Below are positions 1 through 15,513 of a stretch of 15,513 bases of DNA, piece after piece. Position 1 is the stretch's first letter; every line of letters begins with the position of its first letter. The position numbers and the translations under genes are program-made. Source of the stretch: an uncultured Ruminococcus sp. (GTDB taxonomy: Bacteria > Bacillota > Clostridia > Oscillospirales > Ruminococcaceae). The stretch lies in contig CAMCOJ010000013.1 of the NCBI GenBank assembly GCA_945876405.1, positions 1 to 15,513 of the forward strand. The letters are read 5' to 3'. The notes under the pieces were generated by a model. The model was not told the DNA's origin. It saw only the letters and a list, made by a program, of their open reading frames with translations, and did not search any database.

Positions 1-509
1 GTATTGACAAGTCGTGCAATCAGGGCAAGATGGTTCATGCTCACCTTGACAAGAGTCATCTTACAGTTCACACATTTCCTGAATCCCATCCGGACAATGC
101 GATATCAACATTCCGTGTTGATATCGACGTTTCAACCTGCGGAGAGATATCACCTCTTAATGCACTTGATTACCTTATAGCAAGTTTTGACTCGGATATA
201 ATCACGATAGACTACAGAGTGCGTGGTTTTACCCGTGATGTGCATGGAAAAAAATATTTTATCGACCACGACATCACTTCCATACAGGACTATATAAATG
301 AAAGTACACTTCAGCGCTATGATGCCATAGACGTTAATGTGTATCAGTCAAATATTTTTCACACAAAAATGCTGATAAAGGAACTGCAGCTTCAAAACTA
401 TCTTTTTAACACAGATGTATATGAGCTGCCGCCTAAGCAGCGGCTTGATATTTCCAACAGTCTCAGAAGAGAGATGATTGAAATATTCAGCGGTGCAAAT
501 ATTTATTAA
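1..509 (+). CDS. speD: S-adenosylmethionine decarboxylase, C-terminal part (5' end outside window)
   Basis: AdoMet decarboxylase makes decarboxylated AdoMet, the aminopropyl donor for spermidine synthase. The reading frame is open from base 3, so the ATG at 30 is an internal Met and the true start lies upstream of the window. The protein resembles the E. coli-type (class 1A) enzyme closely from memory: the self-cleavage site LDKSH is present, with the Ser codon at 54-56 that becomes the pyruvoyl cofactor. The motif STCGEISPL follows with a Cys 28 residues after that Ser, the same spacing as Ser112/Cys140 in E. coli. Other family-typical stretches are [16 protein letters not shown] and NIFHTKM. 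About 168 codons remain, so roughly the N-terminal 100 residues (the beta-chain side) are missing. It is the first visible gene of the polyamine operon, 39 nt before speA. Identity is very secure. Confidence 0.95.
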
Positions 510-548
510 TCTGTTACACTATGAAAGAAACGGAGGATTTCCTAAAAA

Positions 549-2000
549 ATGCATTATACTCAGAACAATGCTCCGTTATACGAAGCAATGATAAACTTCA
601 GACAGAACAGAGTTGTTCCGTTTGATGTTCCGGGGCACAAGGGAGGACGAGGAAACGAAGAACTCACAGAGTTTCTTGGAAAAAACTGTCTGAAGGCTGA
701 CGTTAATTCAATGAAACCGCTCGACAATCTCTGTCACCCGGTATCTGTAATAAAGGATGCACAGGAACTTGCAGCAGAAGCTTTTGGTGCTGCTTCAGCA
801 TTCTTTATTGTAAACGGAACCACGGGCTCGGTGCAGGCTATGATTATGTCTGCAACGAAAGAAGGCGACAAGGTAATCATGCCGAGAAATGTACACAGGA
901 GTGCTATCAATGCACTTGTAGTTAACGGTGCAAAACCAGTGTATGTAAATCCGGGTGTAAACAATAAACTCGGAATCCCGCTAGGTATGTCGGTTGCCGA
1001 CGTTGAAAAAGCCATCACTGAAAATCCGGATGCAAAAGCTGTACTTATTAACAATCCTACATACTACGGTGTCTGTTCGGATCTTAAGGCTATTGTTGAA
1101 CTTGCCCATAAACACAATATGCTCGCCCTTGTTGACGAGGCACACGGAACACATTTTTACTTTGGGAAAAATATGCCATTAAATGCAATGGCAGCAGGAG
1201 CCGATATGGCATCCGTAAGTATGCACAAATCAGGTGGTTCACTTACACAAAGCTCTATTCTCCTGCTGGGACCAAATGTAAATGCCGGATATGTACGTCA
1301 GGTTATAAACCTTACCCAGACAACAAGTGCCTCATATCTGCTTATGTCCTCTCTGGATATAGCAAGAAAAAATCTTGCTCTTAACGGTGCTGAGATTTTT
1401 GACAAGGCAACAAAATATGCACAGTATGCAAGATGTGAGATAAACAGTATCGGAGGATTTTATGCATTCGGTTCTGAACTCATTGACGGAGATGCATTTT
1501 ACAACTTTGATAAAACAAAACTATCTGTAAATACTCTCGATACAGGGCTTGCCGGAATAGAAGTTTACGATATTCTTCGTGACGAATACAATATTCAGAT
1601 TGAATTCGGAGATCTCGGCAACATACTTGCATATATCTCTGCAGGTGACCGTGCCCTTGAAATCGAACGTCTGATATCCGCTCTTGCAGAAATAAAGCGC
1701 AGATACTCAAAGGACAAGACCGGAATGTTTGACCACGAATACATTAATCCTATTGTGAGTCTTACTCCAAAGAAAGCATTTTTCAGCAGCAAGGAAAAAA
1801 TGGAACTTGAAAAATGTGACGGACAGATATGCGGTGAGTTTGTAATGTGCTATCCTCCGGGAATACCGATACTTGCCCCGGGCGAGAAAATTACAAAGGA
1901 AATTATAAGCTATATTTTATATGCCAGGGAAAAAGGATGCTTCCTTACCGGTACACAGGATATGGAAGTAAATACTCTCCAGGTTGTAGTAGAGGAGTGA
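549..2000 (+). CDS. speA: PLP-dependent arginine (or lysine/ornithine) decarboxylase, fold-type I, SpeA/Orn-Lys-Arg family
   Basis: Cytosolic amino-acid decarboxylase of the short Bacillus SpeA type (483 aa; the family is close to 490). Visible family motifs are VPGHKGG near residues 27-33, the cofactor-ring pocket DEAHGTH at 196-202 and the PLP-binding lysine K227 in SMHKSGGSLTQSS. The shorter C-terminal domain runs from about residue 380. Sequence alone does not separate arginine from lysine or ornithine as substrate. The agmatinase gene two places downstream argues for arginine, giving agmatine, and that is an inference from context. The ATG at 549 follows a GGAGG at 532-536 with a rather long 12-nt spacer. 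Its 3' end carries the ribosome site of speE. Short opposite-strand frames inside it are shadows. Confidence 0.9.
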   Translation: MHYTQNNAPLYEAMINFRQNRVVPFDVPGHKGGRGNEELTEFLGKNCLKADVNSMKPLDNLCHPVSVIKDAQELAAEAFGAASAFFIVNGTTGSVQAMIMSATKEGDKVIMPRNVHRSAINALVVNGAKPVYVNPGVNNKLGIPLGMSVADVEKAITENPDAKAVLINNPTYYGVCSDLKAIVELAHKHNMLALVDEAHGTHFYFGKNMPLNAMAAGADMASVSMHKSGGSLTQSSILLLGPNVNAGYVRQVINLTQTTSASYLLMSSLDIARKNLALNGAEIFDKATKYAQYARCEINSIGGFYAFGSELIDGDAFYNFDKTKLSVNTLDTGLAGIEVYDILRDEYNIQIEFGDLGNILAYISAGDRALEIERLISALAEIKRRYSKDKTGMFDHEYINPIVSLTPKKAFFSSKEKMELEKCDGQICGEFVMCYPPGIPILAPGEKITKEIISYILYAREKGCFLTGTQDMEVNTLQVVVEE

Positions 2001-2006
2001 TTTATT

Positions 2007-2864
2007 GTGGAACTCTGGTACACAGAAAACCATACCGAGAATGTAAAATTTTCAATAAAAGTTGACAGACAGCTCATGACAATGCAAAGCGAATTTCAGA
2101 GAATAGATATCTTTGAATCCAATGAATTCGGAAGAATTCTTACCCTTGACGGATATCTTATGGTAACTGAAAAAGACGAATATATCTATCATGAAATGAT
2201 AACACATGTTCCCATGGCAACGAATCCAGACATAAAAAATGTTCTTGTTGTCGGCGGAGGAGACGGCGGTACTGTAAGAGAACTGTGCCGCTACAGCACA
2301 ATAGAAAAAATTGACCTTGTTGAAATAGACAGGATGGTAGTGGATGCATGCAGGGAATATCTCCCTTCCCTTGCCTGCTCACTTGATGATAAACGAGTAA
2401 CAATACACTATGAAGACGGAATGAGATTTGTGAGAAATGCTCCGGATAATAAATACGATCTGATTATCGTTGATTCAACAGATCCTTTTGGAGTCGGTGA
2501 AGGTCTTTTCACAAAGGAATTTTACGGAAACTGCTGCAGATCACTTACTGAAGAAGGCATACTTGTAAATCAGCATGAGAGTACATTTTATGACTCATAT
2601 GCAAACTCAATGAAACGTGCTCACAGCAGAATAAAAGATTTCTTCAGTACTGCACTTGTTTATCAGGCACATATCCCGACTTACCCTTCAGGACACTGGC
2701 TCTTTGGCTTTGCATCCAAAAAATATGATCCGAGAGCTGACCTGAATGCAGAATGGTGGAACAGTCTCGGACTGGTTACAAAATACTATAACACTATTCT
2801 TCACAAAGGATGCTTTGCAATACCAAACAATGTGAGAAATACTCTCCGTGAAACATACAAATAA
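2007..2864 (+). CDS. speE: Polyamine aminopropyltransferase (spermidine synthase)
   Basis: Transfers an aminopropyl group from decarboxylated AdoMet to putrescine (or possibly agmatine), giving spermidine and methylthioadenosine. The 285-residue protein is of normal family length. It has an N-terminal beta domain, then a Rossmann-like methyltransferase fold with GGGDGG at 83-88, the acidic strand end LVEID at 104-108, the active-site motif VDSTDP at 155-160 (catalytic Asp candidates D156 and D159), and YPSGHW at 226-231. The start is GTG. No ATG occurs before residue 24, and AGAGGAG at 1991-1997, inside the end of speA, sits 9 nt upstream. The gene begins 6 nt after the speA stop, so translational coupling is likely. 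speD at the operon head supplies the donor substrate. Exact acceptor specificity cannot be read from the sequence. Confidence 0.93.
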   Translation: MELWYTENHTENVKFSIKVDRQLMTMQSEFQRIDIFESNEFGRILTLDGYLMVTEKDEYIYHEMITHVPMATNPDIKNVLVVGGGDGGTVRELCRYSTIEKIDLVEIDRMVVDACREYLPSLACSLDDKRVTIHYEDGMRFVRNAPDNKYDLIIVDSTDPFGVGEGLFTKEFYGNCCRSLTEEGILVNQHESTFYDSYANSMKRAHSRIKDFFSTALVYQAHIPTYPSGHWLFGFASKKYDPRADLNAEWWNSLGLVTKYYNTILHKGCFAIPNNVRNTLRETYK

Positions 2865-2882
2865 CCGAAAGGAGTATAAGAG

Positions 2883-3731
2883 TTGAATAAAAACATCAGT
2901 ACTTTTATTGCATGTGATGCGGAATACGATGAGAGTAAGATTGTTCTCTTCGGTGCTCCGTTTGACAGCACTACTTCATACAGACCCGGAACACGCTTCG
3001 GAAGCTCGGCTATAAGAAACGAAAGCTTCGGAATCGAAACATACAGCCCGTATACAGACAGGGATCTTCAGGACACAAAGATTTTTGATGCAGGTGATCT
3101 GGAACTCTGCATGGGCAGCAGTGAACTTGCCCTAAAGGATATTGAAGAATTTACTGACAAGGTACTTGAAGACGGAAAGATTCCTTTTATGATAGGCGGA
3201 GAACACCTTGTAACGCTTGGTGCTGTCCGTTCAGCTGTAAAAAAATATCCTGACCTTCATATTATCCACTTTGACGCACATGCTGACCTTCGGGAAAGCT
3301 ATCTCGGAGTTAAGCTTTCACATGCGTGTGTAATGCACAGGTGTCACGATCTCGTAGGAGACGGAAAGATTTTTCAGTTTGGAATAAGAAGCGGTGACCG
3401 TGAAGAATTCAGATGGGGTAAAGATCATGTTTATACAAACAGGTTCGACTTTGATACCCTTGAGGAAATTGCTGAAAAGTTAAAAGGAAAACCGGTTTAT
3501 TTCACACTTGATCTTGACGTAATGGACCCTTCGATATTCTGTGGAACAGGCACCCCTGAAGCTGACGGAGTATCATTCAGAGAACTTATCAACGCTATAA
3601 AGACTGTTTCAAATCTCAATATAGTAGGTCTCGATATGAACGAACTTTGCCCTGTATACGACCAGAGCGGTGCTTCAACTGCTCTTGCATGCAAACTTCT
3701 TCGCGAGATACTTCTGATGATATACAAATAA
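2883..3731 (+). CDS. speB: Agmatinase-family ureohydrolase
   Basis: Manganese ureohydrolase expected to split agmatine into putrescine and urea. The 282-residue protein carries all the metal-ligand motifs of the arginase/agmatinase family: GGEH (H108), DAHAD (D131, H133, D135) and LDLDVMDP (D210, D212). The start is TTG at 2883, with AAAGGAG at 2868-2874 8 nt upstream. The next in-frame ATG is about 100 residues in, after conserved sequence, so the TTG start is needed. It begins 18 nt after speE. The pairing with a SpeA-type decarboxylase supports agmatine as substrate. N1-aminopropylagmatine, as in the Thermus route, is an alternative because speE sits between speA and speB. Family is certain; substrate is likely but not proven. 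Confidence 0.9.
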   Translation: MNKNISTFIACDAEYDESKIVLFGAPFDSTTSYRPGTRFGSSAIRNESFGIETYSPYTDRDLQDTKIFDAGDLELCMGSSELALKDIEEFTDKVLEDGKIPFMIGGEHLVTLGAVRSAVKKYPDLHIIHFDAHADLRESYLGVKLSHACVMHRCHDLVGDGKIFQFGIRSGDREEFRWGKDHVYTNRFDFDTLEEIAEKLKGKPVYFTLDLDVMDPSIFCGTGTPEADGVSFRELINAIKTVSNLNIVGLDMNELCPVYDQSGASTALACKLLREILLMIYK

Positions 3732-3753
3732 TTTTTTAAGGAGGACCAGAAAA

Positions 3754-4971
3754 TTGGGTAGAGCTTTAATTATCGGTGCAGGCGGTGTAGCAAGTGTTGT
3801 TGTTCACAAGTGCTGCCAGAACAGTGATGTTTTTGAGGAGATCTGCATAGCAAGCAGAACAAAGTCAAAGTGCGATGCACTTAAGGCTAAGCTTGACGGA
3901 GGAAAAACAAAGATTACAACTGCTCAGGTAAATGCAGACAGTGTTGAAGAACTCGTTTCTCTTATGAAGAGTTACAAGCCGGATATCTGTATTAACGTTG
4001 CACTTCCATATCAGGATCTCACTATTATGGATGCCTGTCTCGAATGTAAGGTTGACTATGTTGATACAGCAAACTATGAACCGCTTGATACTGCAAAGTT
4101 CGAATACAAGTGGCAGTGGGCATACAGAGAAAGATTTGAGAAAGCTGGAATAACAGCTCTTCTCGGAAGCGGATTTGATCCGGGCGTAACAGGTGTATTT
4201 TCTGCATATGCTCAGAAGCATTATTTCGATGAAATACACTACATCGATATTCTTGACTGCAATGGCGGTGACCACGGTTATCCGTTCGCAACAAACTTCA
4301 ACCCTGAAATCAATATCAGAGAAGTTTCAGCAAACGGAAGCTATATTGAAAACGGCAAATGGGTTGAAACAAAACCTATGGAAATAAAGAGAGTGTATAA
4401 CTTTGATCAGGTTGGAGAAAAAGATATGTACCTTCTCCATCACGAAGAACTTGAATCACTCGCCCTCAATATAAAGGGAATAAAGAGAATAAGATTTTTC
4501 ATGACATTTGGTCAGAGTTATCTTACACATCTCAAATGCCTTGAAAATGTGGGCATGACTTCTATCGAACCGATTATGTACGAAGGAAAGGAAATTGTAC
4601 CGCTCCAGTTCCTCAAGGCTGTGCTTCCTGATCCGGCTTCACTCGGTCCAAGAACAGTGGGCAAGACAAATATCGGATGTATCTGTCACGGTATCAAGGA
4701 CGGAAAAAAGGTTTCATATTACGTTTATAATGTCTGTGACCATCAGGAATGCTACAAAGAAGTGGGTTCACAGGCAATCTCATACACAACCGGTGTACCG
4801 GCAATGATTGGTGCTATGATGGTTATGACCGGCAAGTGGAAGAAACCGGGAGTTTACAATATTGAAGAATTCGATCCGGATCCGTTTATGGAAGAACTGG
4901 GTAAGTGGGGCCTCCCGTGGATTGAAAACTTTGCACCAGTGCCGGTAGACAACAGCCATGAAGAAGCCTGA
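3754..4971 (+). CDS. Carboxynorspermidine/carboxyspermidine dehydrogenase (saccharopine dehydrogenase-like)
   Basis: NAD(P)H-dependent reductase that condenses a diamine with aspartate beta-semialdehyde, giving carboxyspermidine from putrescine or carboxynorspermidine from diaminopropane. The 405-residue protein begins directly with a Rossmann dinucleotide loop, GAGGVASVV at 8-16. It then has features of the Lys1/CANSDH family such as DICINVALPYQD, VDTANYE and GFDPGVTGVF. Length agrees with the Vibrio and Campylobacter enzymes (about 400 aa). The start is TTG at 3754 behind a perfect AAGGAGG at 3738-3744 (9-nt spacing), and the Rossmann motif immediately after rules out a later start. It follows speB by 22 nt and overlaps nspC by 14 nt, and this pairing gives the functional call. 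A true saccharopine dehydrogenase is much less likely beside nspC and speB. Confidence 0.9.
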   Translation: MGRALIIGAGGVASVVVHKCCQNSDVFEEICIASRTKSKCDALKAKLDGGKTKITTAQVNADSVEELVSLMKSYKPDICINVALPYQDLTIMDACLECKVDYVDTANYEPLDTAKFEYKWQWAYRERFEKAGITALLGSGFDPGVTGVFSAYAQKHYFDEIHYIDILDCNGGDHGYPFATNFNPEINIREVSANGSYIENGKWVETKPMEIKRVYNFDQVGEKDMYLLHHEELESLALNIKGIKRIRFFMTFGQSYLTHLKCLENVGMTSIEPIMYEGKEIVPLQFLKAVLPDPASLGPRTVGKTNIGCICHGIKDGKKVSYYVYNVCDHQECYKEVGSQAISYTTGVPAMIGAMMVMTGKWKKPGVYNIEEFDPDPFMEELGKWGLPWIENFAPVPVDNSHEEA

Positions 4972-6100
4972 ATTTGATATAACGAAGGTAAAAACTCCTT
5001 CATACATTATCGATGAAAATCAACTGATAAAAAATCTTGAAATTCTCAGCGGTGTTGAAAAAAGAACCGGATGCAAAATACTGCTTGCTCAGAAAGCATT
5101 CTCCTGCTACCATCTCTATCCCCTTATATCAAAGTATATAAGCGGAACAGCATGCAGCGGACTATATGAAGCACGGCTTGGATACGAATGCATGGGCAAG
5201 GAAAACCACGTATTCTGTGCCGGTTACCGCGAGGATGAAATTGAAGAGATTATCAGGTACTGCGGACATATCATCTTCAATTCCTTCACTCAGCTTGACC
5301 GTTACAGAGACAGTGTTCTCCGTTCAGGAAAGAAAATCGGACTTCGCATAAATCCTGAGCATTCAACACAGGAAGGACATGCTATCTATGATCCGTGCTC
5401 CCCGACTTCCCGTCTCGGAATTACTCTTAAAAACTTCAGACCCGATGATCTTGAAGGAGTAAGCGGTCTTCACTTCCATACTCTTTGTGAACAGAATTCT
5501 GATGACCTTGAAACCACTCTTGATTCGGTTGAAGAAAAGTTCGGAAAGTATCTTGATAAAATGGAATGGATTAATTTCGGCGGCGGACACCATATCACAA
5601 GAAACGACTACGATATCCCGCGTCTTGAAAGATGCATTAAGCGCATGCAGGAAAGATACGGACTTGAAGTGTTCCTTGAACCCGGTGAAGCAGTTGCGCT
5701 CAATGCAGGTTTCCTTGTAACAAAGGTACTTGATATTATAAACAAGGATGATATGGACATCGCAATACTTGACACATCTGCCGCTTGTCATATGCCCGAT
5801 GTGCTTGAGATGCCGTACAGACCGCCTCTGATTGATTCAGGAAAGCCTTATGAAAAGAAGTTCACATACAGACTTGGTTCTCAAACCTGTCTCTCAGGTG
5901 ACTTTATCGGCGAATATTCATTTGATATCCCGCTTGATACTGATTCAAGACTTGTTTTTGCTGATATGGCCATCTATACAATGGTGAAAAACAATACATT
6001 TAACGGAATGGGACTCCCGTCAATAATTGTTTGCCGGAAAGACGGAACGCTTGAAACACTTAAAGAATTCGGGTATGATGATTTTAAAATGAGATTATAA
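4958..6100 (+). CDS. nspC: Carboxynorspermidine/carboxyspermidine decarboxylase
   Basis: PLP enzyme of the alanine-racemase/ornithine-decarboxylase fold (fold type III). It removes the carboxyl group from carboxyspermidine or carboxynorspermidine to give the free triamine. The 380-residue protein shows the PLP lysine K46 in LLAQKAF, a barrel histidine region GLHFHTLCEQ (170-179), the phosphate-binding glycine run GGGHH (208-212), EPGEA (241-245) and the second-subunit active-site segment CLSGD (C311, D315). The ATG at 4958 lies inside the preceding dehydrogenase gene with no good Shine-Dalgarno before it, so translation is probably coupled. It is the last gene of the operon; a strong hairpin begins at once after the stop codon. 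Confidence 0.93.
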   Translation: MKKPEFDITKVKTPSYIIDENQLIKNLEILSGVEKRTGCKILLAQKAFSCYHLYPLISKYISGTACSGLYEARLGYECMGKENHVFCAGYREDEIEEIIRYCGHIIFNSFTQLDRYRDSVLRSGKKIGLRINPEHSTQEGHAIYDPCSPTSRLGITLKNFRPDDLEGVSGLHFHTLCEQNSDDLETTLDSVEEKFGKYLDKMEWINFGGGHHITRNDYDIPRLERCIKRMQERYGLEVFLEPGEAVALNAGFLVTKVLDIINKDDMDIAILDTSAACHMPDVLEMPYRPPLIDSGKPYEKKFTYRLGSQTCLSGDFIGEYSFDIPLDTDSRLVFADMAIYTMVKNNTFNGMGLPSIIVCRKDGTLETLKEFGYDDFKMRL

Positions 6101-6136
6101 AAAAATGAGCAGAATCGCATTCTGCTCATTTTTTTT
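6101..6136. terminator. Bidirectional intrinsic terminator between nspC and glgA
   Basis: A perfect 15-bp inverted repeat (arms 6101-6115 and 6119-6133) encloses a 3-base loop, CGC. The core is ATGAGCAGAAT paired with ATTCTGCTCAT. It is followed by a T run on the + strand and, because the left arm begins with a run of A, by a T run on the - strand too. It can therefore end both the polyamine operon and the convergent glycogen operon. Only 37 nt separate the two stop codons. Confidence 0.93.
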
Positions 6137-6137
6137 A

Positions 6138-7562
6138 TTATCTGTTTCCTAAAAGTTCCTTATAGAGATCAATGTATTTTTCAGATGAGGTATCCCAGCT
6201 GAAATCACATTTCATTACATTCTTTACAAGTTTTCTCCATGACTTCGTATCTTTGTAAAGTTCCTGGGCTCTGAGGCATGCATTAAGCATATCATGTGCA
6301 TTGTATGTCTTGAATGTAAATCCGTTTCCGTTCTCACCGCCACAGTCCTTTACTGAATCTCTGAGTCCGCCTGTTTCACGTACAATCGGAACAGTACCGT
6401 ATCTCATAGCAATCATCTGGGCAAGACCGCATGGTTCATTCTGGGAAGGCATAAGGAACATATCTGAACCTGCGTAAATTTTTCTTGCAATCTCCGGAAC
6501 GAATCCGATAGTAACACTTACCTTATCAGGATATCTGAGTGACATCTCTCTGAAGAAATCCTCAAATATCTTTTCGCCGCTGCCAATAATAGCAAATTTG
6601 AATCCACGGTCAACCATCTCTTCAAATATATATTTGACAAGGTCAAGTCCCTTATGACCGACAAATCTCGATACAATACCTACAACCGGTTCATTTCCCT
6701 CCTGAAGGCCAAGATCTGCCAATAGCTTGTCTTTACATGCTTTCTTCCCCTTCACGGGAGCAGAAGCACTGAAGTTTGCCGGAATAAGCGGATCTGTTTC
6801 AGGATCATATACAGTAGTATCTATACCATTGAGTATACCTGAAAGCTTGTACTGCTTATTAATCAGAATTCTGTCAAGTCCGTATGCGTACCATGGATCA
6901 AGGATTTCCCAGGCATAACTTGGACTTACTGTTGAAATCCTGTCCGCGGCCTCAAAAGCACCCTTCATCATATTAATACAGTCATCATACATAAGGAGAT
7001 CCGTATGATACATAGGTATTCCCATTACTTCATTTACAACTTCTACACCGTACTTGCCCTGATACTGAATATTGTGAATGGTAAAGAGATTTTTTATGTT
7101 TTCAAATCCCTGCTGGTACTTGTAGAGCACCTGATAGTAAACTGAAACAAGTGATGTCTGCCAGTCATTTGCATGAATAATATCCGGCTTAAAATCAATG
7201 TATCTGAGCATCTCGAGAACTGATCTTGAGAAAAATGTAAACCTCTCACAGTCATCATAGAAACCATACATGCCGTCCCTGCCAAAATAATACTCATTAT
7301 CAATAAAATAATAAACAACCCCGTTATAAATTGTAGTAAGTATTCCGCAGTACTGCTTTCTCCATGATACATCAACTGTAATACTTGTAAGCGGGGTTAA
7401 ACTGGATCTTAATTCCGGTTTTATGTTTTTGTAAAGAGGGATTACTACACGGCAGTCATGTCCCTTTCTGTTTATTGCCGCAGGCAGAGAGCCCGCAACA
7501 TCAGCCAGTCCTCCTGAGGCCGCAAACGGCATAGCTTCACTTGCTGCATATAAAATATTCAT
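6138..7562 (-). CDS. glgA: Glycogen synthase (ADP-glucose-dependent, GT5)
   Basis: Elongates alpha-1,4-glucan chains using ADP-glucose. The 474-residue protein has the two Rossmann domains of GT-B enzymes. The N-terminal half carries the SGGLADVAGSLP loop (16-27), HANDWQTS (130-137) and HNIQYQGKYG (163-172). The C-terminal half has VSRFVGHKG (R299, K304), the acidic active-site segment PSQNEPCGL (E376) and RETGGLRDSV (395-404). Where E. coli GlgA has Lys15 in a KTGGL motif, this protein has Ala15 (AASGGL); the other visible catalytic residues are intact. Start ATG at 7562 has only a modest GTGAG-like ribosome site. It is the last gene of glgBCDA, 89 nt after glgD, and an internal promoter in that gap is possible. 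No glgP follows, unlike the Bacillus operon. Confidence 0.94.
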   Translation of the reverse strand: MNILYAASEAMPFAASGGLADVAGSLPAAINRKGHDCRVVIPLYKNIKPELRSSLTPLTSITVDVSWRKQYCGILTTIYNGVVYYFIDNEYYFGRDGMYGFYDDCERFTFFSRSVLEMLRYIDFKPDIIHANDWQTSLVSVYYQVLYKYQQGFENIKNLFTIHNIQYQGKYGVEVVNEVMGIPMYHTDLLMYDDCINMMKGAFEAADRISTVSPSYAWEILDPWYAYGLDRILINKQYKLSGILNGIDTTVYDPETDPLIPANFSASAPVKGKKACKDKLLADLGLQEGNEPVVGIVSRFVGHKGLDLVKYIFEEMVDRGFKFAIIGSGEKIFEDFFREMSLRYPDKVSVTIGFVPEIARKIYAGSDMFLMPSQNEPCGLAQMIAMRYGTVPIVRETGGLRDSVKDCGGENGNGFTFKTYNAHDMLNACLRAQELYKDTKSWRKLVKNVMKCDFSWDTSSEKYIDLYKELLGNR

Positions 7563-7588
7563 ATTTGTTCAACTCACTTTCGTTTTAT

Positions 7589-7627
7589 ATTATATGAGAA
7601 AATGCAGGACTATACAAAGCCCTGCAT
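7589..7627 (-). promoter_or_regulatory. Hairpin and candidate promoter in the glgD-glgA gap
   Basis: On the - strand the 89-nt gap holds a 7-bp inverted repeat, ATGCAGG with CCTGCAT (7602-7608 and 7621-7627), followed by a short T-rich stretch. Overlapping it is a possible sigma-A promoter: TTGTAT at 7612-7617, a 17-nt spacer and a perfect TATAAT at 7589-7594. The hairpin could weaken read-through from glgD and the promoter could restart transcription of glgA. The -35 element is poor and the region is AT-rich, so both are tentative. Confidence 0.35.
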
Positions 7628-7651
7628 CAAAACTCTTATTCAGATTAATAA

Positions 7652-8788
7652 TTAATCATCTTCAATTTTCTGATTCTTTTTGATGAAGAGAGCGTTTTTA
7701 GTTGAAGCAGTAAGAAGCTTATTCCTACCTACCCTAACGTTTTTATCTGTGATAACCGCATGAAGCTCTGCATCTTCGCCAATCTGTGTATTCTGCATAA
7801 GAATGCAGTTTCTTACAACAGCCCCTTTTCCTACCTTGACTCCACGGAAAAGCACTGAGTTGATTACTTCACCTTCGATAACACAACCATCAGCAATAAG
7901 AGAGTTTCGAACCACTGAACCCGCTTCATACTTTGCAGGACCGGAATCCTTTACTTTGGTATAAATCGGCGTATTGTTCAGGAACATCTTCTGCATGTTT
8001 TCAGGATTGAGAAGATTCATGTTTGCATTGTAGTATGACATAATATCTTCAATCTTCTCGTAATATCCTTTGTGTTCATATCCGCAGATTCTGTAGTTTG
8101 CCTTATTCTGCTGAAGAACCTGCTTGTCAAAACTTGCAAATCCTTCAGGGGCATATCTGCTTACTATCTTTTCAAGTATTCTTCTGCCGATAACAAACAT
8201 GTTAAGTGATCTGTTCGCTTCACCAAGAATATCAGGATTGATTGTCGCACTGATTACCCTCTTTTCATCATCAACTTCGAGTATTGTTGAAGCAGTTGAA
8301 CCAATACCATTATTTGTGAAGTTGTGCTTTGCATATACAACAGTGATATCAGCGTCATTTTTCATATGTTCTCTAATAACCTGCCTGAAATCTATGGTTG
8401 TTACTACATCACAGTCAGCCATTACGACGTATTCGGCATTTGAGTGCTGAATGAAAGGAAGGATTCCTTCAATAGCTTCTATTCTTCCTCTGTATAGACC
8501 GCTCTTGTGATGACTGAACGGAGGAAGAAGATGAATTCCGCCGTTCTTTGTGCACAGATCCCACTCTCTTCCAGAACCGATATGATCAAGAAGTGACTGA
8601 TAATTCGATTTGGTAACTACACCAACTTCAGGAATACCTGAGTTAGTCATATTCGAAAGCGGGAAATCAATAAGTCTGTATCTTCCGCCAAAGAGAATTG
8701 AACCCATTGTTCTTACCTGAGTAAGTTCTGATACAGATTCATCATGCATATTTGAAAATATAAGTCCTAAAATATTATTATAAATCAT
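7652..8788 (-). CDS. glgD: Glucose-1-phosphate adenylyltransferase regulatory subunit GlgD
   Basis: GlgC paralogue that forms a hetero-oligomer with GlgC in Firmicutes and adjusts ADP-glucose pyrophosphorylase activity. The 378-residue protein keeps the shared scaffold (LFGGRYRLIDFPLSN at 32-46, GGIHLLPP at 83-90, and a C-terminal left-handed beta-helix of hexapeptide repeats from about 275). It lacks catalytic signatures present in its neighbour. The N-terminal AGGQGSRL loop is replaced by FSNMHDES, GGDHIY by MADCDVV (123-129), and the EKP substrate motif is absent. By sequence it should be non-catalytic or weakly active. ATG at 8788 has AAGGGG at 8797-8802, 9 nt upstream. It starts 20 nt after glgC. 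Confidence 0.93.
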   Translation of the reverse strand: MIYNNILGLIFSNMHDESVSELTQVRTMGSILFGGRYRLIDFPLSNMTNSGIPEVGVVTKSNYQSLLDHIGSGREWDLCTKNGGIHLLPPFSHHKSGLYRGRIEAIEGILPFIQHSNAEYVVMADCDVVTTIDFRQVIREHMKNDADITVVYAKHNFTNNGIGSTASTILEVDDEKRVISATINPDILGEANRSLNMFVIGRRILEKIVSRYAPEGFASFDKQVLQQNKANYRICGYEHKGYYEKIEDIMSYYNANMNLLNPENMQKMFLNNTPIYTKVKDSGPAKYEAGSVVRNSLIADGCVIEGEVINSVLFRGVKVGKGAVVRNCILMQNTQIGEDAELHAVITDKNVRVGRNKLLTASTKNALFIKKNQKIEDD

Positions 8789-8808
8789 TCGTTACATCCC
8801 CTTAATCA

Positions 8809-9996
8809 TTAAACAACAGGTATCATCTGACCAGGAGCTACGGAAACGCCTGAAGAAATCACTTCACCATGACCTATAACAGCGATATCCCACTTTGTAT
8901 CATTTCCTGTTTCTTCTTTTGAAGCACCGATTCTGACATCATTTTCAATAACTGAGTCTTCACCGATAATTGCGTACTTAACAACTGAACCGGACTTTAT
9001 AACAGCACCCGGCATAATTACACTGTGATCGATAAAAACGTCTTTTTCAACTGTTACACCTGAATATATAATCGAAGATGTAATACTTCCGTTCACATTG
9101 CATCCGTCACAGACAAGTGAATCCTGAATATCGGCATCAGGTCCTATATACTGCGGAGGAAGACTCATATTGCGTGAATATATCTTCCAGTTCTGATCAT
9201 AAAGATTAAGATCAGATGCGTTAAGAATATCCATATTTGCTTCCCAGAGACTGTAGAGTGTACCAACATCCTTCCAGTAACCTTCAAAAGAATATGCAAA
9301 CATTCTCTCGTTGTTTGCAAGCATAGCAGGAATGATATCCTTTCCGAAATCCTTCGAGCCGCCTGCATTCTCGTTTTCAATAAGATACTTTCTGAGTTTT
9401 TCCCATGTGAAAACGTAAATACCCATTGACGCAAGAGTAGACTTTGGCTCCTTAGGCTTTTCTGTAAAGTCTACAACACGGAAATCACTGTCACATGTCA
9501 TAATACCGAATCTTGAGGCTTCCTCAAGAGTAACATTAAGAACTGCAATAGTTGCATCTGCTGAATGTTCCTTATGGAACTCAACCATCTTTGAATAATC
9601 CATCTTGTATATATGGTCACCGCCAAGAACAATTATATACTCCGGATTGTAACGTTCAATAAATCTGATGTTCTGATAAATGGCGTTTGCTGTTCCTTCA
9701 TACCATGAACTGCCTGATGCTGTCTGATACGGAGGGAGAATATGTACACCACCACGAAGTCTGTCAAGATCCCATGGCTGACCATTTCCTATGTAGTCAT
9801 TAAGTTCAAGCGGCTGGTACTGAGTAAGAACACCTACTGTATCAATACCAGAGTTAGTGCAGTTGGACAGAGGAAAATCAATTATTCTGTATTTTCCACC
9901 GAACGGAACTGCAGGTTTTGCCATTTTCTGTGTCAAAGCATATAATCTGCTTCCCTGCCCACCAGCCAGAAGCATAGCTATGCATTCCTTTTTCAT
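8809..9996 (-). CDS. glgC: Glucose-1-phosphate adenylyltransferase, catalytic subunit
   Basis: Makes ADP-glucose from ATP and glucose-1-phosphate, the committed step of bacterial glycogen synthesis. The 395-residue protein has the nucleotidyltransferase loop [10 protein letters not shown] (9-18), [15 protein letters not shown] (31-45, with the lysine of the activator/substrate region), the metal/catalytic GGDHIYKMD (D127) and FTEKP (E179-K180, the glucose-phosphate contact). A beta-helix domain of hexapeptide repeats follows from about 285. All expected catalytic motifs are present, in contrast with GlgD. ATG at 9996 follows a strong GGGAGGA that overlaps the glgB stop region; the gap to glgB is 14 nt. 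Confidence 0.95.
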
Positions 9997-10010
9997 ATTA
10001 TAATTCCTCC

Positions 10011-11975
10011 CTATTTCACTGAAGATTTGCTGTTTTTCGTTGTTGCCGTGACCTTTTTTGTAGTACGTTTCTTTGTCACACTTTTTTTCTCATGCTGCAG
10101 ATAAAGCACTGACAGAGGAGGTAATGTGAGTGAAATGCTCTGATCGTATCCATGCATAGGGATATCTGCGGTTTTATATGTTTTTACAGACTTGCCGGTT
10201 CCTCCGAACTCAACTGCGTCTGAATCAAATACAAGTTTATAACGTCCACTCTCCGGAATACCTATCTTGTATTTTGTTCTTTCAACAGGAACGAAATTAC
10301 ATACAATAATTATCTCATTTCCACTGTCATCAATGCGACGGAATGCGATAACACTCTGCTTGTAATCATCGTTTGAAATCCACTTGAATCCACCCCATGA
10401 GTTGTCGTTTTCCCACATAGGTGAATTTTTCAGATAGAATTTGTTAAGCTTTCTGTTGAATTCCTGAAGCTGTCTGTGTTTTTCACAGTTAAGAACAGCC
10501 CAGTCAAGACCTTCTTCGTAGTTCCATTCCTTTCTCTGACCAAATTCCTGTCCCATGAACAGAAGTTTTTTGCCCGGGTGAGCCATCATATAACAAAGGA
10601 ATGCTCTGTATGAACTGAACTTCTGATCTTCATTTCCACTCATCTTTTCAAGAAGTGAACACTTACCGTGTACAACTTCATCGTGTGAAATAGGAAGTAC
10701 AAAATTCTCTGAGAAACAATAGAAGAATGAGAATGTAATCTTGTCATGATTGAATGCTCTGTATATCGGGTCGAGTGACATATAGAAAAGCATGTCGTTC
10801 ATCCAGCCCATATTCCACTTGTAATTGAAACCAAGTCCGCCGATATCAGTAGGCTTTGTAACCATAGGCCACGCAGTTGATTCTTCGGCAATCATAAGTG
10901 TATTAGGGTTGTTTTTGAATACTGCTTCATTAAGCAGTCTGAAAAACTCAACGGCTTCGAGATTCTCCTTGCCTCCGTAGATATTAGGTGCCCATTCACC
11001 GTCACGTCTGTCATAGTCAAGATAAAGCATGGATGCAACGGCATCAACTCTAAGTCCGTCAAGATGGAATTCATTAATCCAGTAACATGCATTTGAAATA
11101 AGGAACGATCTTACTGCTCCTTTTCCGTAATCAAATACATGCGTTCCCCACGACTTGTGTTCACGTTTTCTCTGATCCTCATATTCGTAGCAGCAACCTC
11201 CGTCAAACATATAGAGACCATAGCCGTCCTTCGGAAAATGAGCCGGAACCCAGTCAAGAATAACACCTATGTTGTTCTCGTGAAACAAATCAACCATGTT
11301 TCTGAAATCATCAGGTGTTCCGTAACGTGAAGTCGGAGCATAGTAACCAGTAACCTGATAACCCCATGAACCGTCAAACGGATGCTCAGTAAGAGGCATA
11401 AACTCTATGTGAGTATAGGACATCTCCTTAAGATACGGAATTATCTCCTCTGCAAACATAGTGTAACTCTTGAATGTTGAGTCAGAATTCTTCTTCCATG
11501 ATCCCAGATGTACTTCATAAATATTGATCGGTCCTCTGTAAATCTCACGGTCTGATTTTTTGCTGAGCCACTTACTGTCTCTCCACTTATAATCGGATTC
11601 GAAGATTTTTGAAGCTGTCTCAGGCCTTGTTTCATAGTGATTTGAATACGGATCGGCCTTCATGATAATTCTGTTGTCTCTGGTTCTGATACTGTACTTA
11701 TAGTTATCGAACTGATTAAGAGCAGGAATCTTTGCTTCCCATATCTCTTCAGATATCTTATACATCGGATTGCAATCACGATTCCAGCTGTTGAATGAAC
11801 CTACTACTGAGATGTCAACTGCATTAGGTGCCCATACACGAAAATAGTGATATTCTTTTCCGTCTTCATTCACCCTGTGAGCACCAAAAAACTTATATGA
11901 TTCAAAATTATTACCCTGCTGAAAAAGGTATATCGGAACATCATATGATTTGTCGGTTTTTATACTATTATGCAT
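10011..11975 (-). CDS. glgB: 1,4-alpha-glucan branching enzyme (GH13)
   Basis: Creates alpha-1,6 branches in glycogen. An N-terminal CBM48-like domain (about 30-125, with YFRVWAPNA and VVGSFNSWN) leads into the GH13 barrel. Visible motifs, numbered from a TTG one codon upstream, are [10 protein letters not shown] (239-248), the nucleophile region [10 protein letters not shown] (D312), the acid/base region MIAEES (E365) and SHDEVVHGK (H432, D433). A beta-sandwich domain closes the fold. The last 25 residues form an unusual Lys/Thr/Ser-rich tail with no acidic residue. I choose ATG at 11975 (654 aa) over TTG at 11978 because GGGAGGG at 11983-11989 lies 7 nt from the ATG. It is the first gene of the glycogen operon, with a promoter just upstream. 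Confidence 0.95.
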
Positions 11976-11982
11976 CAAATCA

Positions 11983-11989
11983 CCCTCCC
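11983..11989 (-). promoter_or_regulatory. Ribosome binding site of glgB
   Basis: GGGAGGG on the - strand sits 7 nt before the ATG at 11975 but only 4 nt before the in-frame TTG at 11978. This favours the ATG as the start. Confidence 0.75.
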
Positions 11990-12001
11990 ATAACTACTCT
12001 T

Positions 12002-12030
12002 ATTGTAACAGAATATCAAAAATTAATCAA
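12002..12030 (-). promoter_or_regulatory. Candidate sigma-A promoter of the glgBCDA operon
   Basis: TTGATT at 12025-12030, a 17-nt spacer and TACAAT at 12002-12007 lie on the - strand, each hexamer close to consensus (four and five of six). Transcription would begin near 11995, leaving a leader of about 20 nt with the glgB ribosome site. No intrinsic terminator is clear between spoIIE and this promoter, so some read-through is possible. Confidence 0.7.
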
Positions 12031-12053
12031 GTCTTTCGGTGTGTATTTTATAC

Positions 12054-12064
12054 TTTTGTCGAAA
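12054..12064. promoter_or_regulatory. Spo0A-box-like sequence upstream of glgB
   Basis: TTTTGTCGAAA on the + strand contains the full Spo0A recognition core TGTCGAA (12057-12063) with the T-rich flank typical of strong sites. It lies about 25 bp upstream of the -35 of the glgB promoter, a place where an activator could act. This is a sequence match only. On reading I saw no other TGTCGAA in the window. Confidence 0.45.
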
Positions 12065-12187
12065 TGCTACATTAATTCCCCGAGAAATAGTGCAATTTTT
12101 TTAAAAGAAATTTATTTACTTTTTTTTATTTGGTAAATTCGTGTTTTTCTTCACATTTATCCGCCATCTTTTTTGTATATTTGACTA

Positions 12188-14191
12188 TTACTGACGTACA
12201 AGCCTTGCCGTGATAACGCTTACATCATCATAGCTGATTTTTTGTGATAGCCTGCATATATTTTCCGATATTTCACTCACATCTGATTTTTCTGTCAACT
12301 CTCTTTTTATTACGCCATATGCTTTTTCCGGAACTCCGTCAGATATCATGGTAACCATATCACCCGTTTTCAATGAAAAAGTCCTTTTAAACATTCCTGC
12401 AGTGTCAGCAGCCCCAATAGGAAAAGTTGGCGAATTCACACTGAATATACTGCCTCCGTGAAGAAAAATAGTTGGAGCAGCTCCTGATTTGTAAACAGTC
12501 ATATTCCCGTTATCAAGATCAAAAGCCGCAACATCCAGAGTAGCAAAATAATCATCTGTGCTTTCCGAACGGATAATTGTATTTATTATTCTGATGCTCT
12601 GTTCGGCATCAACTCCCCCAAGAATAAACTGCCTGAACAGTCCCACAGCTCTTGAAGAATATTCGAAAGCTCTTTTACCTGTACCCATTCCGTCTGAAAT
12701 TACTATGTAAAATTTCCCGTAACTGTCACGGAAGCAAAGACAGGTATCTCCGTTCTCTTCGGAAGACGCTGAACTTTTCTGTGATATTTCCGCTTCTATT
12801 CTGTATGCCGGCCGCTCGCTGATGAGGAATCTCATCTCCTCACCGTCATAGCATTTTGTACATTCAAAATTTATTCCGAATTCATCGCTTAGAGTTCGGT
12901 AAATTCTGTATCCGCTTACACAGGAATTTTTCGGACAGTATATTTCTGCGAACAGTCTTCTGCTGCTGTTATAATAAGCAACCAGAGAAACAAATCCTAT
13001 ATCATTTTCATTAAGCACAGTCTTCATTCTTGAAGTTATACGGCGGTCAATTATAAATCTCTTCTGAACATCGGATGAAAGACTGCGTATTATTTCAGAA
13101 GATGCAGTAAGCTGCTCTGCGAGTATGTTTTTTGACATGGTTCTGTATTCACTTTCTGTGATATCTGCAATACTCCCAGCATTTCCTGCATAATTTTTTT
13201 TAATTTCATTAAAGCTTTCCGGTTTTTCTGCGGCATTACCGATTGTATTGGCGACAAGTCTCATTCTGAACGATGAAATTCTCATCATATCACTCTCTTC
13301 GTCAAAAGTGCTGCTTATTCTCTTTTCTTCATTATGCACCTTTTCAACAGGCACCATACAGAAAAAAATTATCCCCGCAACTATATTCACATAGGACATA
13401 ACAGGAAACATACCGGCACCGGAAACAGCAGTACACATAACTGAAACAAGCAGATAAGCTGAAGCTGCAGCAGGACGACCGTAGTTTATAAATGTACCTG
13501 CAGCCATGCCTGATATTCCCATAAAAACTACCGAACGGATATCCGCCGCTCCGTTTATAATCAATGCGGCCGCTCCGGTAATCCCCGCAGTTGAACCACC
13601 TGCAAACCTGTAGTTTCTTGCATAAACAAGAGTAAAAAATACAGCAGCTATCTCCCCTGGATTTATTCCGAAAAATGAAAATGAGGAAAGAACAGAAACA
13701 GCTGAAAAGCAAAGCAAAGCTACAGCAGGCTTGTTTACAGCTGCCTCTGCAATGATTCCCCTTGGTGAATTAAGGAGGATAACTGTATAACCGCAGACAA
13801 ATCCGGCAAGAACGGAGGCTGTGCTGAAAACTGCCAGACTGCGCAGGGAAAATTTTTCTGTAATACAGAAGAAAACAAAAGATAACATGAAACACAGTGC
13901 AACAGCTATTCCGCGTTTAAGAGCATCATTTTTCTTTATGAAAACTGATAACAACGGAATCAGAATTACTGCAGATACATACTGAACCGACTGCATATTA
14001 CCTGAAGAGATACATGACATTATAATTCCTGCAGCTGCTGTCAGTGAACAGAGCGGAGAAAGTGCAGCTGCAAACGCAAATGGAAACGGTGATGCTGCAA
14101 ATGAAAATTTTGAATATGATAAAAAGAAAAAAGCTGATATACATGCAATCAGTTTTAAGGATACTGGTGTTTTACGTTGATTTTCCTGCAT
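12188..14191 (-). CDS. spoIIE: Stage II sporulation protein E-like PP2C serine phosphatase
   Basis: In Bacillus SpoIIE dephosphorylates SpoIIAA to activate sigma F in the forespore and acts at the polar septum. The 667-residue protein has a hydrophobic N-terminal half (about 12-282) with roughly ten membrane segments, a soluble middle part (about 285-480) and a PP2C domain. The PP2C metal-binding motifs are present: VISDGMGTGKRA (D500), MISDGVPE (D618) and YDDVSVITARL (D655-D656). It is about 160 residues shorter than the 827-aa Bacillus protein, mostly in the middle region. That region has paired cysteines (C419/C424, C444/C447, C485). ATG at 14191 has AAAGGA 8 nt upstream. It stands alone between the ksgA terminator and the glycogen operon. 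The combined membrane and PP2C architecture supports SpoIIE over other PP2C proteins. Confidence 0.9.
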   Translation of the reverse strand: MQENQRKTPVSLKLIACISAFFFLSYSKFSFAASPFPFAFAAALSPLCSLTAAAGIIMSCISSGNMQSVQYVSAVILIPLLSVFIKKNDALKRGIAVALCFMLSFVFFCITEKFSLRSLAVFSTASVLAGFVCGYTVILLNSPRGIIAEAAVNKPAVALLCFSAVSVLSSFSFFGINPGEIAAVFFTLVYARNYRFAGGSTAGITGAAALIINGAADIRSVVFMGISGMAAGTFINYGRPAAASAYLLVSVMCTAVSGAGMFPVMSYVNIVAGIIFFCMVPVEKVHNEEKRISSTFDEESDMMRISSFRMRLVANTIGNAAEKPESFNEIKKNYAGNAGSIADITESEYRTMSKNILAEQLTASSEIIRSLSSDVQKRFIIDRRITSRMKTVLNENDIGFVSLVAYYNSSRRLFAEIYCPKNSCVSGYRIYRTLSDEFGINFECTKCYDGEEMRFLISERPAYRIEAEISQKSSASSEENGDTCLCFRDSYGKFYIVISDGMGTGKRAFEYSSRAVGLFRQFILGGVDAEQSIRIINTIIRSESTDDYFATLDVAAFDLDNGNMTVYKSGAAPTIFLHGGSIFSVNSPTFPIGAADTAGMFKRTFSLKTGDMVTMISDGVPEKAYGVIKRELTEKSDVSEISENICRLSQKISYDDVSVITARLVRQ

Positions 14192-14235
14192 TTTTTACAT
14201 TCCTTTCAGGGATATAACCCTCATAAAATAAAAAT

Positions 14236-14273
14236 AAGGAATCACCCGAAATCATCTGTTTCGGGTGTTCCTT
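14236..14273 (-). terminator. Intrinsic terminator after ksgA
   Basis: A long stem (arms 14236-14251 and 14259-14273; core CACCCGAAA with TTTCGGGTG, extended by AAGGAA/TTCCTT with a single bulged base) closes a 7-nt loop. Read on the - strand it is followed by a T-rich stretch (ATTTTTATTTTAT), as expected for termination of ksgA transcription. spoIIE then needs its own promoter, for which I see no convincing hexamers. Confidence 0.88.
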
Positions 14274-14317
14274 ATCATTATATCAGACAGTTATCGTAAA
14301 AAATGTCAAAGTAATGC

Positions 14318-15181
14318 TCAGTGAATGTATTTTTTCAGGTTAAGTGAGAAATTCATAAGTGATTCCATATCAAGCTGCTCCACTCTTGTATTTTCACTGA
14401 ATCCTGTCTCAGCAAGAGCTGCATAAATATCCTGCTTAGTGAACGAAAGCATGGAAGAAAGTGAATTTGCAAGTGTCTTTCTTCTCTGTGAAAAAGCAGA
14501 CTTTACAACAGAAAAGAAAAATTTTTCATCTTCCGGTTCAAGTGAGTATTTTTTATTAACATCTATCCGGATTACTGCTGAATCAACATTCGGAGCAGGA
14601 ATGAAACTTCCTCTTGAAACACTGAAAAGCGTTTTTGCATCCCCGTAGTATCTGACTGCCACAGATATGGCACCTGACTGTCTTGTTCCCGGCTCAGCAC
14701 AGAGTCGTTCAGCTGCTTCCTTCTGAACCATTACCGTAAGAGACTTTACAGGTGCTCCGCTTTCAAGAAAATGCATAATAACCGGAGAAGTAATATAATA
14801 AGGAAGATTTGCACATACTGCAACGTCCATTCCATCAAATTCTTCACTTATAAGTTTACAGATGTCAACATTCATAATATCTTCATTGATGACCTTAATA
14901 TTGTTAAAATCAGCAAGCGTCTCCTCAAGTACAGGGAGAAGTCTCTGATCTATCTCAACAGCCACAACTTTGTCAGCTCTTGAGGCAAGTTCAGCAGTAA
15001 GAGTTCCTATACCTGTGCCGACTTCGATGATTCCGAATCCCTTCTTAGCATTTCCCATCTCTGCTATTTTAGGGCATACTGAAGGATTTACAAGGAAGTT
15101 CTGCCCGAGACCTTTTGAAAAATTAAAGTTATGTCTGCCAAGCAGCTCTTTTATATATCCGAGATTTGTGAGATTGTTCAT
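14318..15181 (-). CDS. rsmA: 16S rRNA (adenine1518-N6/adenine1519-N6)-dimethyltransferase
   Basis: KsgA/RsmA dimethylates two adjacent adenines near the 3' end of 16S rRNA during late 30S assembly. The 287-residue protein (from ATG 15181) has the family entry motif LGQNFL (25-30), the AdoMet loop EVGTGIGTLT (53-62), AVEIDQRLLP (74-83) and the adenine-binding motif NLPYY (125-129). QRRKTL follows in the C-terminal helical domain. An upstream in-frame ATG at 15199 would add six residues (MKGKYS) but lacks a ribosome site, while AAAGG at 15192-15196 serves the inner ATG, whose N-terminus also matches the Bacillus homologue in layout. It is divergent from the deaminase gene and has its own terminator. 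Confidence 0.95.
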   Translation of the reverse strand: MNNLTNLGYIKELLGRHNFNFSKGLGQNFLVNPSVCPKIAEMGNAKKGFGIIEVGTGIGTLTAELASRADKVVAVEIDQRLLPVLEETLADFNNIKVINEDIMNVDICKLISEEFDGMDVAVCANLPYYITSPVIMHFLESGAPVKSLTVMVQKEAAERLCAEPGTRQSGAISVAVRYYGDAKTLFSVSRGSFIPAPNVDSAVIRIDVNKKYSLEPEDEKFFFSVVKSAFSQRRKTLANSLSSMLSFTKQDIYAALAETGFSENTRVEQLDMESLMNFSLNLKKYIH

Positions 15182-15191
15182 AGAGTATTTA

Positions 15192-15196
15192 CCTTT
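15192..15196 (-). promoter_or_regulatory. Ribosome binding site supporting the inner ksgA start
   Basis: AAAGG on the - strand lies 10 nt before the ATG at 15181. The sequence before the alternative ATG at 15199 (AACCCTGCAC-like, then A-rich) has no purine-rich anti-16S match. Confidence 0.5.
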
Positions 15197-15218
15197 CATT
15201 ATTTTTTTGTGCAGGGTA

Positions 15219-15247
15219 TTGCAAAAATGATAAAAAATTATTATAAT
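15219..15247 (+). promoter_or_regulatory. Promoter of the dCMP deaminase-like gene
   Basis: TTGCAA at 15219-15224, a 17-nt spacer and a perfect TATAAT at 15242-15247 precede the deaminase ATG by about 55 nt, leaving room for its ribosome site at 15291-15295. Confidence 0.7.
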
Positions 15248-15268
15248 AATATAGTAAAGCTTACAGAA
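15240..15268 (-). promoter_or_regulatory. Weak candidate promoter for ksgA, overlapping the divergent one
   Basis: On the - strand TTCTGT (15263-15268), a 17-nt spacer and TATAAT (15240-15245) could drive ksgA. The -10 shares bases with the + strand -10. The -35 is poor and the DNA is AT-rich, so the call is weak. Confidence 0.3.
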
Positions 15269-15303
15269 AAGCTGAAAAACAATAAATAGCAGGAGCGATT
15301 AAT

Positions 15304-15469
15304 ATGACCAGAAGAGACAAAATAAACTACTATCTTGATATCGCTGAAAGCGTTCTTAAGCGCGGCACCTGTATGAGAAGAAACTTCGGAGCAATAATCG
15401 TAAAAAATGACGAGATAATCTCAACCGGTTATGTAGGAGCTCCGAGAGGAAGAGCCAACTGTTCAGACC
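15304..15469 (+). CDS. dCMP deaminase / cytidine-deaminase-fold protein, N-terminal 55 codons only
   Basis: The 55 genuine codons resemble the N-terminus of deoxycytidylate deaminase-family proteins (ComEB-like), which deaminate dCMP to dUMP for dTTP synthesis. The segment RGTCMRRNFGAIIVKNDEII followed by STGYVGAPRGRANC is typical of the family and leads toward the zinc-binding HAE motif, which is not reached. ATG at 15304 has AGGAG at 15291-15295, 8 nt upstream, and a good promoter. After D55 (codon 15466-15468) the sequence changes into sequencing adapter, so the rest of the gene is simply absent from the contig. The frame stays open through the adapter, giving a false VSYTHLRAHET tail that must be ignored. 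This is a library artefact, not a pseudogene. Confidence 0.85.
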
Positions 15470-15513
15470 CTGTCTCTTATACACATCTCCGAGCCCACGA
15501 GACAGGCAGAAAT
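15470..15513 (+). other. Illumina Nextera adapter and index read-through (non-biological)
   Basis: Positions 15470-15488 read CTGTCTCTTATACACATCT, the Nextera transposase mosaic-end sequence. Positions 15489-15503 read CCGAGCCCACGAGAC, the read-2 side of the adapter. The eight bases AGGCAGAA at 15504-15511 match Nextera i7 index N703 from memory, and the final AT fits the start of the P7 arm. The segment lengths (19+15+8+2) account for exactly the last 44 bases. Confidence 0.98.

Follow-up and report, generated by a model that had tools for sequence, protein, structure and literature searches.

The last 44 bases of the contig under study (15470-15513) are, with a probability that we put at about 99%, untrimmed Nextera adapter that was joined to the contig during assembly. 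The window, by which we mean the whole analysed stretch of 15,513 nucleotides, is contig C13 of a draft genome that comprises 434 contigs and 2,537,096 bases and is 88% complete. The adapter reading is established by the identity and order of the parts, the single index pair at the contig ends examined, the location of the copies at contig ends, a Tn5 signature in the flanking bases, and the native continuation of the interrupted gene in a relative; no evidence against it was found. An earlier note on this DNA, made from the letters alone, had arrived at the same interpretation, which is supported in those of its parts that can be checked.

Identity of the terminal bases

Direct reading and a script agree that the final 44 bases are an exact Nextera adapter. 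The earlier note had claimed that the parts match exactly and stand in the right order, and the script confirmed each of them at the following positions.

15470-15488, + strand: Nextera/Tn5 mosaic end, as at the 3′ side of an insert (CTGTCTCTTATACACATCT, 19 nt, exact match)
15489-15503, + strand: Nextera read-2 (i7-side) adapter stem (CCGAGCCCACGAGAC, 15 nt, exact match)
15504-15511, + strand: i7 index N703 (AGGCAGAA)
15512-15513, + strand: first two bases of the P7 arm, reverse complement (AT)

Compared with the Illumina Nextera i7-side N703 adapter used in Tn5 tagmentation, the window has the same mosaic end, stem, index and P7 start, exact and in the same order, with no difference within the 44 bases; the remainder of the P7 arm is lost at the contig end. 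The same arm extends to ATC, ATCT and ATCTC at sister contig ends, and a long stretch of it is present in two loci of other assemblies (L055 and L100). The index name, which the earlier note had offered from recall, is corroborated by the accessible part of a published table of Nextera XT v2 index adapters (PMC7589761), where AGGCAGAA is N703 and AAGGAGTA is S507; the primers in that table bear stems unlike those seen here, so that it supports the index names only. A trimming recipe lists the mosaic end both by itself and extended by either stem; the kit is unnamed in the portion of the text available (PMC6460022).

By chance, an exact match of 42 nt is expected with a probability of about 1e-25 per position at equal base frequencies. 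With up to three mismatches allowed, the window has a single mosaic end (mean in shuffled sequences, 0.01), and when the 44 bases are aligned without gaps to either strand of positions 1-15469, at most 24 of them match. A scripted search of the window for exact copies of the i5-side stem or the TruSeq prefix returned none, and the contig start is without a mosaic end.

Adapter ends across the assembly

The earlier note had warned that other contigs of the assembly may carry adapter, and the warning proved well founded. Exact mosaic ends number 289 among the 434 contigs (143 forward and 146 reverse), against 0 for a reversed control pattern. If each copy corresponds to one end, adapter is present on 289 of 868 contig ends, or about one third. 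The exact i7 stem follows the mosaic end in 138 of the 289 copies, and in 130 of these 138 the full index AGGCAGAA comes next; five of the eight i7 copies without a full index were read (C6, C22, C59, C136 and C204), and all carry the same index cut short. The exact i5 stem follows in 135 of the 289 copies. Neither full stem is present in the remaining 16, three of which were read: in two the contig breaks off within the adapter, and the third carries one mismatch.

We fetched 65 adapter ends: 30 by the mosaic end alone (the first 30 among the matches listed, including the window's own), a further 18 by the i7 stem plus index, and a further 17 by the i5 stem. All 65 are located at contig ends, and their adapter part is 31-51 bases long, most often 45. 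Among the 30 chosen by mosaic end alone, 15 have the exact i7 stem, N703 and arm and 14 the exact i5 stem, S507 and arm, in each case as far as the sequence runs, and one is N703 with one stem mismatch. The index is complete in 25 of these 30, partial in three and missing from two, where the contig ends before it. Of 30 ends whose i5 stem is exact, 28 show the i5 index TACTCCTT, the reverse complement of S507, and the other two are cut short. A single pair of indices, N703 and S507, is what one library is expected to give, and all 30 ends picked regardless of index agree with it over the length that they extend.

A Tn5 target signature beside the junction

The nine genomic bases next to the adapter resemble a preferred site of Tn5 insertion.

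15461-15469, + strand: last nine genomic bases, the Tn5 target bases beside the cut (GTTCAGACC, matching 7 of the 7 specified positions of GNTYWRANC)

The target preference of Tn5 is AGNTYWRANCT, and insertion of adapters by the transposase resembles it weakly, according to the accessible part of PMC3046479. Each junction was scored by the seven specified positions within the inner nine bases of this consensus. Four of the other 15,460 nine-base words before the junction on the + strand of the window reach a score of 7. The 65 junctions of this assembly average 3.52 of 7, compared with 2.60 on average and 3.03 at most when the position is shifted 9-44 bases upstream, and they average 3.05 when scored one base off.

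This test was chosen after the base counts at the assembly's own junctions had been seen, and two further sets of junctions serve as replication. These sets include every mosaic end in the loci concerned, except those lying more than 100 bases from the end of a stretch, those lacking a clean flank of 60 bases, and those with a duplicate flank. The scores are 3.72 versus 2.54 at shifted positions for 141 junctions from a genome collection, and 3.56 versus 2.56 for 129 junctions from viral contigs. Full matches of 7/7 are seen at one of the 65 own junctions, which is that of the window, at one of the 141 and at none of the 129. A Tn5 target bias is present on average at the junction flanks, and it is weak. 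The same weak preference is described in the accessible part of PMC3046479; in the present case it emerges from assembled contig ends, not from reads.

A truncated gene with a false tail

The open reading frame at 15304-15513 (70 aa) runs into the adapter and is a truncated gene with a false tail.

15304-15469, + strand: truncated 5′ part of a cytidine/dCMP-deaminase-family gene, native (PF00383; a longer gene is present in relative L151)
15470-15513, + strand: adapter-encoded false C-terminal tail of the same reading frame (translation, last residues ...PVSYTHLRAHETGRN)

Residues 6-53 of the native part match Pfam PF00383, the zinc-binding region family of cytidine and dCMP deaminases, with 26.9 bits (cut-off 25). 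The native part also matches TIGR02571 (ComEB) partially, well below the cut-off of that model. We therefore name the gene only as a member of the deaminase family. The protein of the relative likewise scores well below the TIGR02571 cut-off, and it is far below the cut-off of an antiphage dCTP deaminase model.

The earlier note had named two kinds of counter-evidence, namely the same 44 bases in the genome of an independent isolate and long reads that run on natively past 15513. All 10 other genomes of the genus lack an exact copy of the mosaic end, and the nearest relative (G007, 89% DNA similarity) carries native coding sequence where the adapter begins here. Its alignment with the window extends as genomic sequence to base 15467 and leaves out just two bases ahead of the junction. 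The gene of the relative reads on as ...CSDLGYCMREK... and encodes 162 residues in all; the window has ...CSDPVSYTHLRAHETGRN at the corresponding place. Missing from the window is the C-terminal part, with the HAE and PCxxC stretches found in the relative, which presumably form its zinc site.

The 44 i7-side bases are free of stop codons in all three forward frames and the i5-side bases in two of three, and therefore an open frame can read through into adapter sequence and give a protein with a spurious end. A literature search for three adapter-encoded peptides found no mention of them.

Origin of the junction and competing explanations

The following sequence of events best accounts for these observations. 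Tn5 transposase carrying the read-2 adapter made its cut directly behind base 15469 and attached the mosaic end at that point, and the N703 index and P7 arm were then added by PCR. Reads longer than their insert probably crossed the junction into adapter, as expected for short inserts, and were left untrimmed. The assembler then extended the contig into the adapter, probably until it reached sequence common to other adapter junctions. The stop about 44-46 bases in may mark the point at which a k-mer holds too few genomic bases to be unique, about ten for k near 55; this is suggested by the narrow spread of adapter lengths, with a mode of 45 among the 65 own ends.

An explanation compatible with this scheme is that the adapter itself made the contig end, in that the genome was covered further and adapter reads broke or hijacked the assembly graph. 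In its favor are the large share of contig ends that carry adapter and the accessible part of a published survey, in which trimming of adapter ends lets some contigs merge, about two per assembly on average (PMC11536531). Against it, no other contig supplies what should lie beyond the break: when the DNA of the relative was used to search this genome for the rest of the gene, the window itself was the sole match, and a search for the opposite side of the cut, where an inverted mosaic end should adjoin the nine target bases, gave no match in this genome. Both would be expected after a simple two-sided cut. Moreover, no pair sharing its nine target bases was found when 65 of the 289 ends were compared all against all. 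We consider a break of this kind possible but rather unlikely, and the missing far side and missing gene remainder make us lean towards a gap in coverage, the completeness being 88%.

A natural origin is far harder to sustain. The mosaic end is derived from the ends of Tn5, and a multi-copy element would break contigs too, so a Tn5/IS50-type transposon end could in principle lie at a contig edge where assembly had halted at a repeated mobile element. Native transposon sequence or a transposase gene should then follow, but the mosaic end is followed instead by the kit stem, an official 8-base index, and the P7 or P5 arm, and we know of no natural element with this combination of stem, index and arm. 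The copies are, in addition, split about evenly between two synthetic stems (138 i7 and 135 i5), and the exact mosaic end is missing from the ten congeneric genomes noted above. A natural transposon end is thus extremely improbable. Less probable still is the sequencing of a deliberate laboratory insertion. Kits for Tn5 mutagenesis do employ mosaic ends, but such a mutant does not fit 289 exact copies in a single fragmented draft of 434 contigs or the position of all 65 fetched copies at contig ends with sequencing index and arm. The natural element and the engineered insertion are both rejected on the index and arm together with the absence from relatives.

Occurrence in other public sequences and consequences

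Untrimmed Nextera adapter is also found well beyond this assembly. Pattern scans for the 34-base mosaic end plus i7 stem found at least 119 stretches in the genome collection and at least 120 among viral contigs, counts that are lower bounds and not rates. Among the matches listed, 126 of 128 in the genome collection and 121 of 123 in the viral contigs begin within 100 bases of either end of a stretch. The indices differ among these other public contigs, and several of them are present in the accessible part of the PMC7589761 table. Internal copies are seen in two other public contigs (L033 at 3943-3976 and L264 at 4953-4986); in L033, adapter and index abut a stretch of N that resembles a scaffold gap. 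In a plasmid collection, matches to the adapter were found in 10 records (H1-H10); they span 33 to 44 of its 44 bases, with at least 97% identity. Four of the 10 matches lie under annotated genes, namely two for hypothetical proteins, one for a replication initiation protein and one ThiF family gene. Records outside draft genomes may therefore be affected too.

Adapter ends of this kind are an ordinary artefact, already known in print, and hold no new biology. Moeller et al. (2024, PMC11536531) report, in the part of the article available, that among 15,657 species reference assemblies 1,110 carry the TruSeq adapter at p < 0.01 (chance expectation, about 157), and they describe the same concentration at the starts and ends of contigs in draft genomes and metagenome-assembled genomes. 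Their screen used the TruSeq universal adapter, and the word Nextera is absent from the accessible main text, whereas the present case concerns the Nextera adapter with both indices readable.

The significance of the finding is for data hygiene only. Bases 15470-15513 should be clipped, the 70-aa reading frame at 15304-15513 is unreliable, and the whole assembly needs screening. False tails and shared adapter words may mislead clustering, contig joining and homology searches. Contig ends alone might also keep enough of the library chemistry, in the form of both indices and the Tn5 signature, to assign contigs to libraries, a proposal to which we give roughly even odds. If it is true, mixed-library bins or swapped samples would be detectable in public genomes without reads.

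Other genes in the window

Two gene runs were noticed in the remaining sequence. The first, at 3-6100 on the + strand, is a polyamine run in which genes of what we take to be two spermidine routes stand side by side; the second, at 6138-11978 on the - strand, consists of consecutive glycogen genes.

Within 3-6100, + strand: adenosylmethionine decarboxylase, end only (TIGR03331)
Within 3-6100, + strand: Orn/Lys/Arg-decarboxylase-family gene (PF01276)
Within 3-6100, + strand: spermidine synthase (TIGR00417)
Within 3-6100, + strand: agmatinase (TIGR01230)
Within 3-6100, + strand: carboxynorspermidine-synthase-like gene (NF043000, below cut-off)
Within 3-6100, + strand: carboxynorspermidine decarboxylase (TIGR01047)
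6138-7562, - strand: putative glycogen synthase (read by eye)
Within 6138-11978, - strand: GlgD (TIGR02092)
Within 6138-11978, - strand: nucleotidyl transferase, read as GlgC (PF00483)
Within 6138-11978, - strand: branching-enzyme-like gene
Within 12188-15199, - strand: SpoIIE-type phosphatase domain gene (PF07228; the model for stage II sporulation protein E is matched below its cut-off)
14318-15199, - strand: rRNA adenine dimethylase-family gene, adjoining the SpoIIE-type gene
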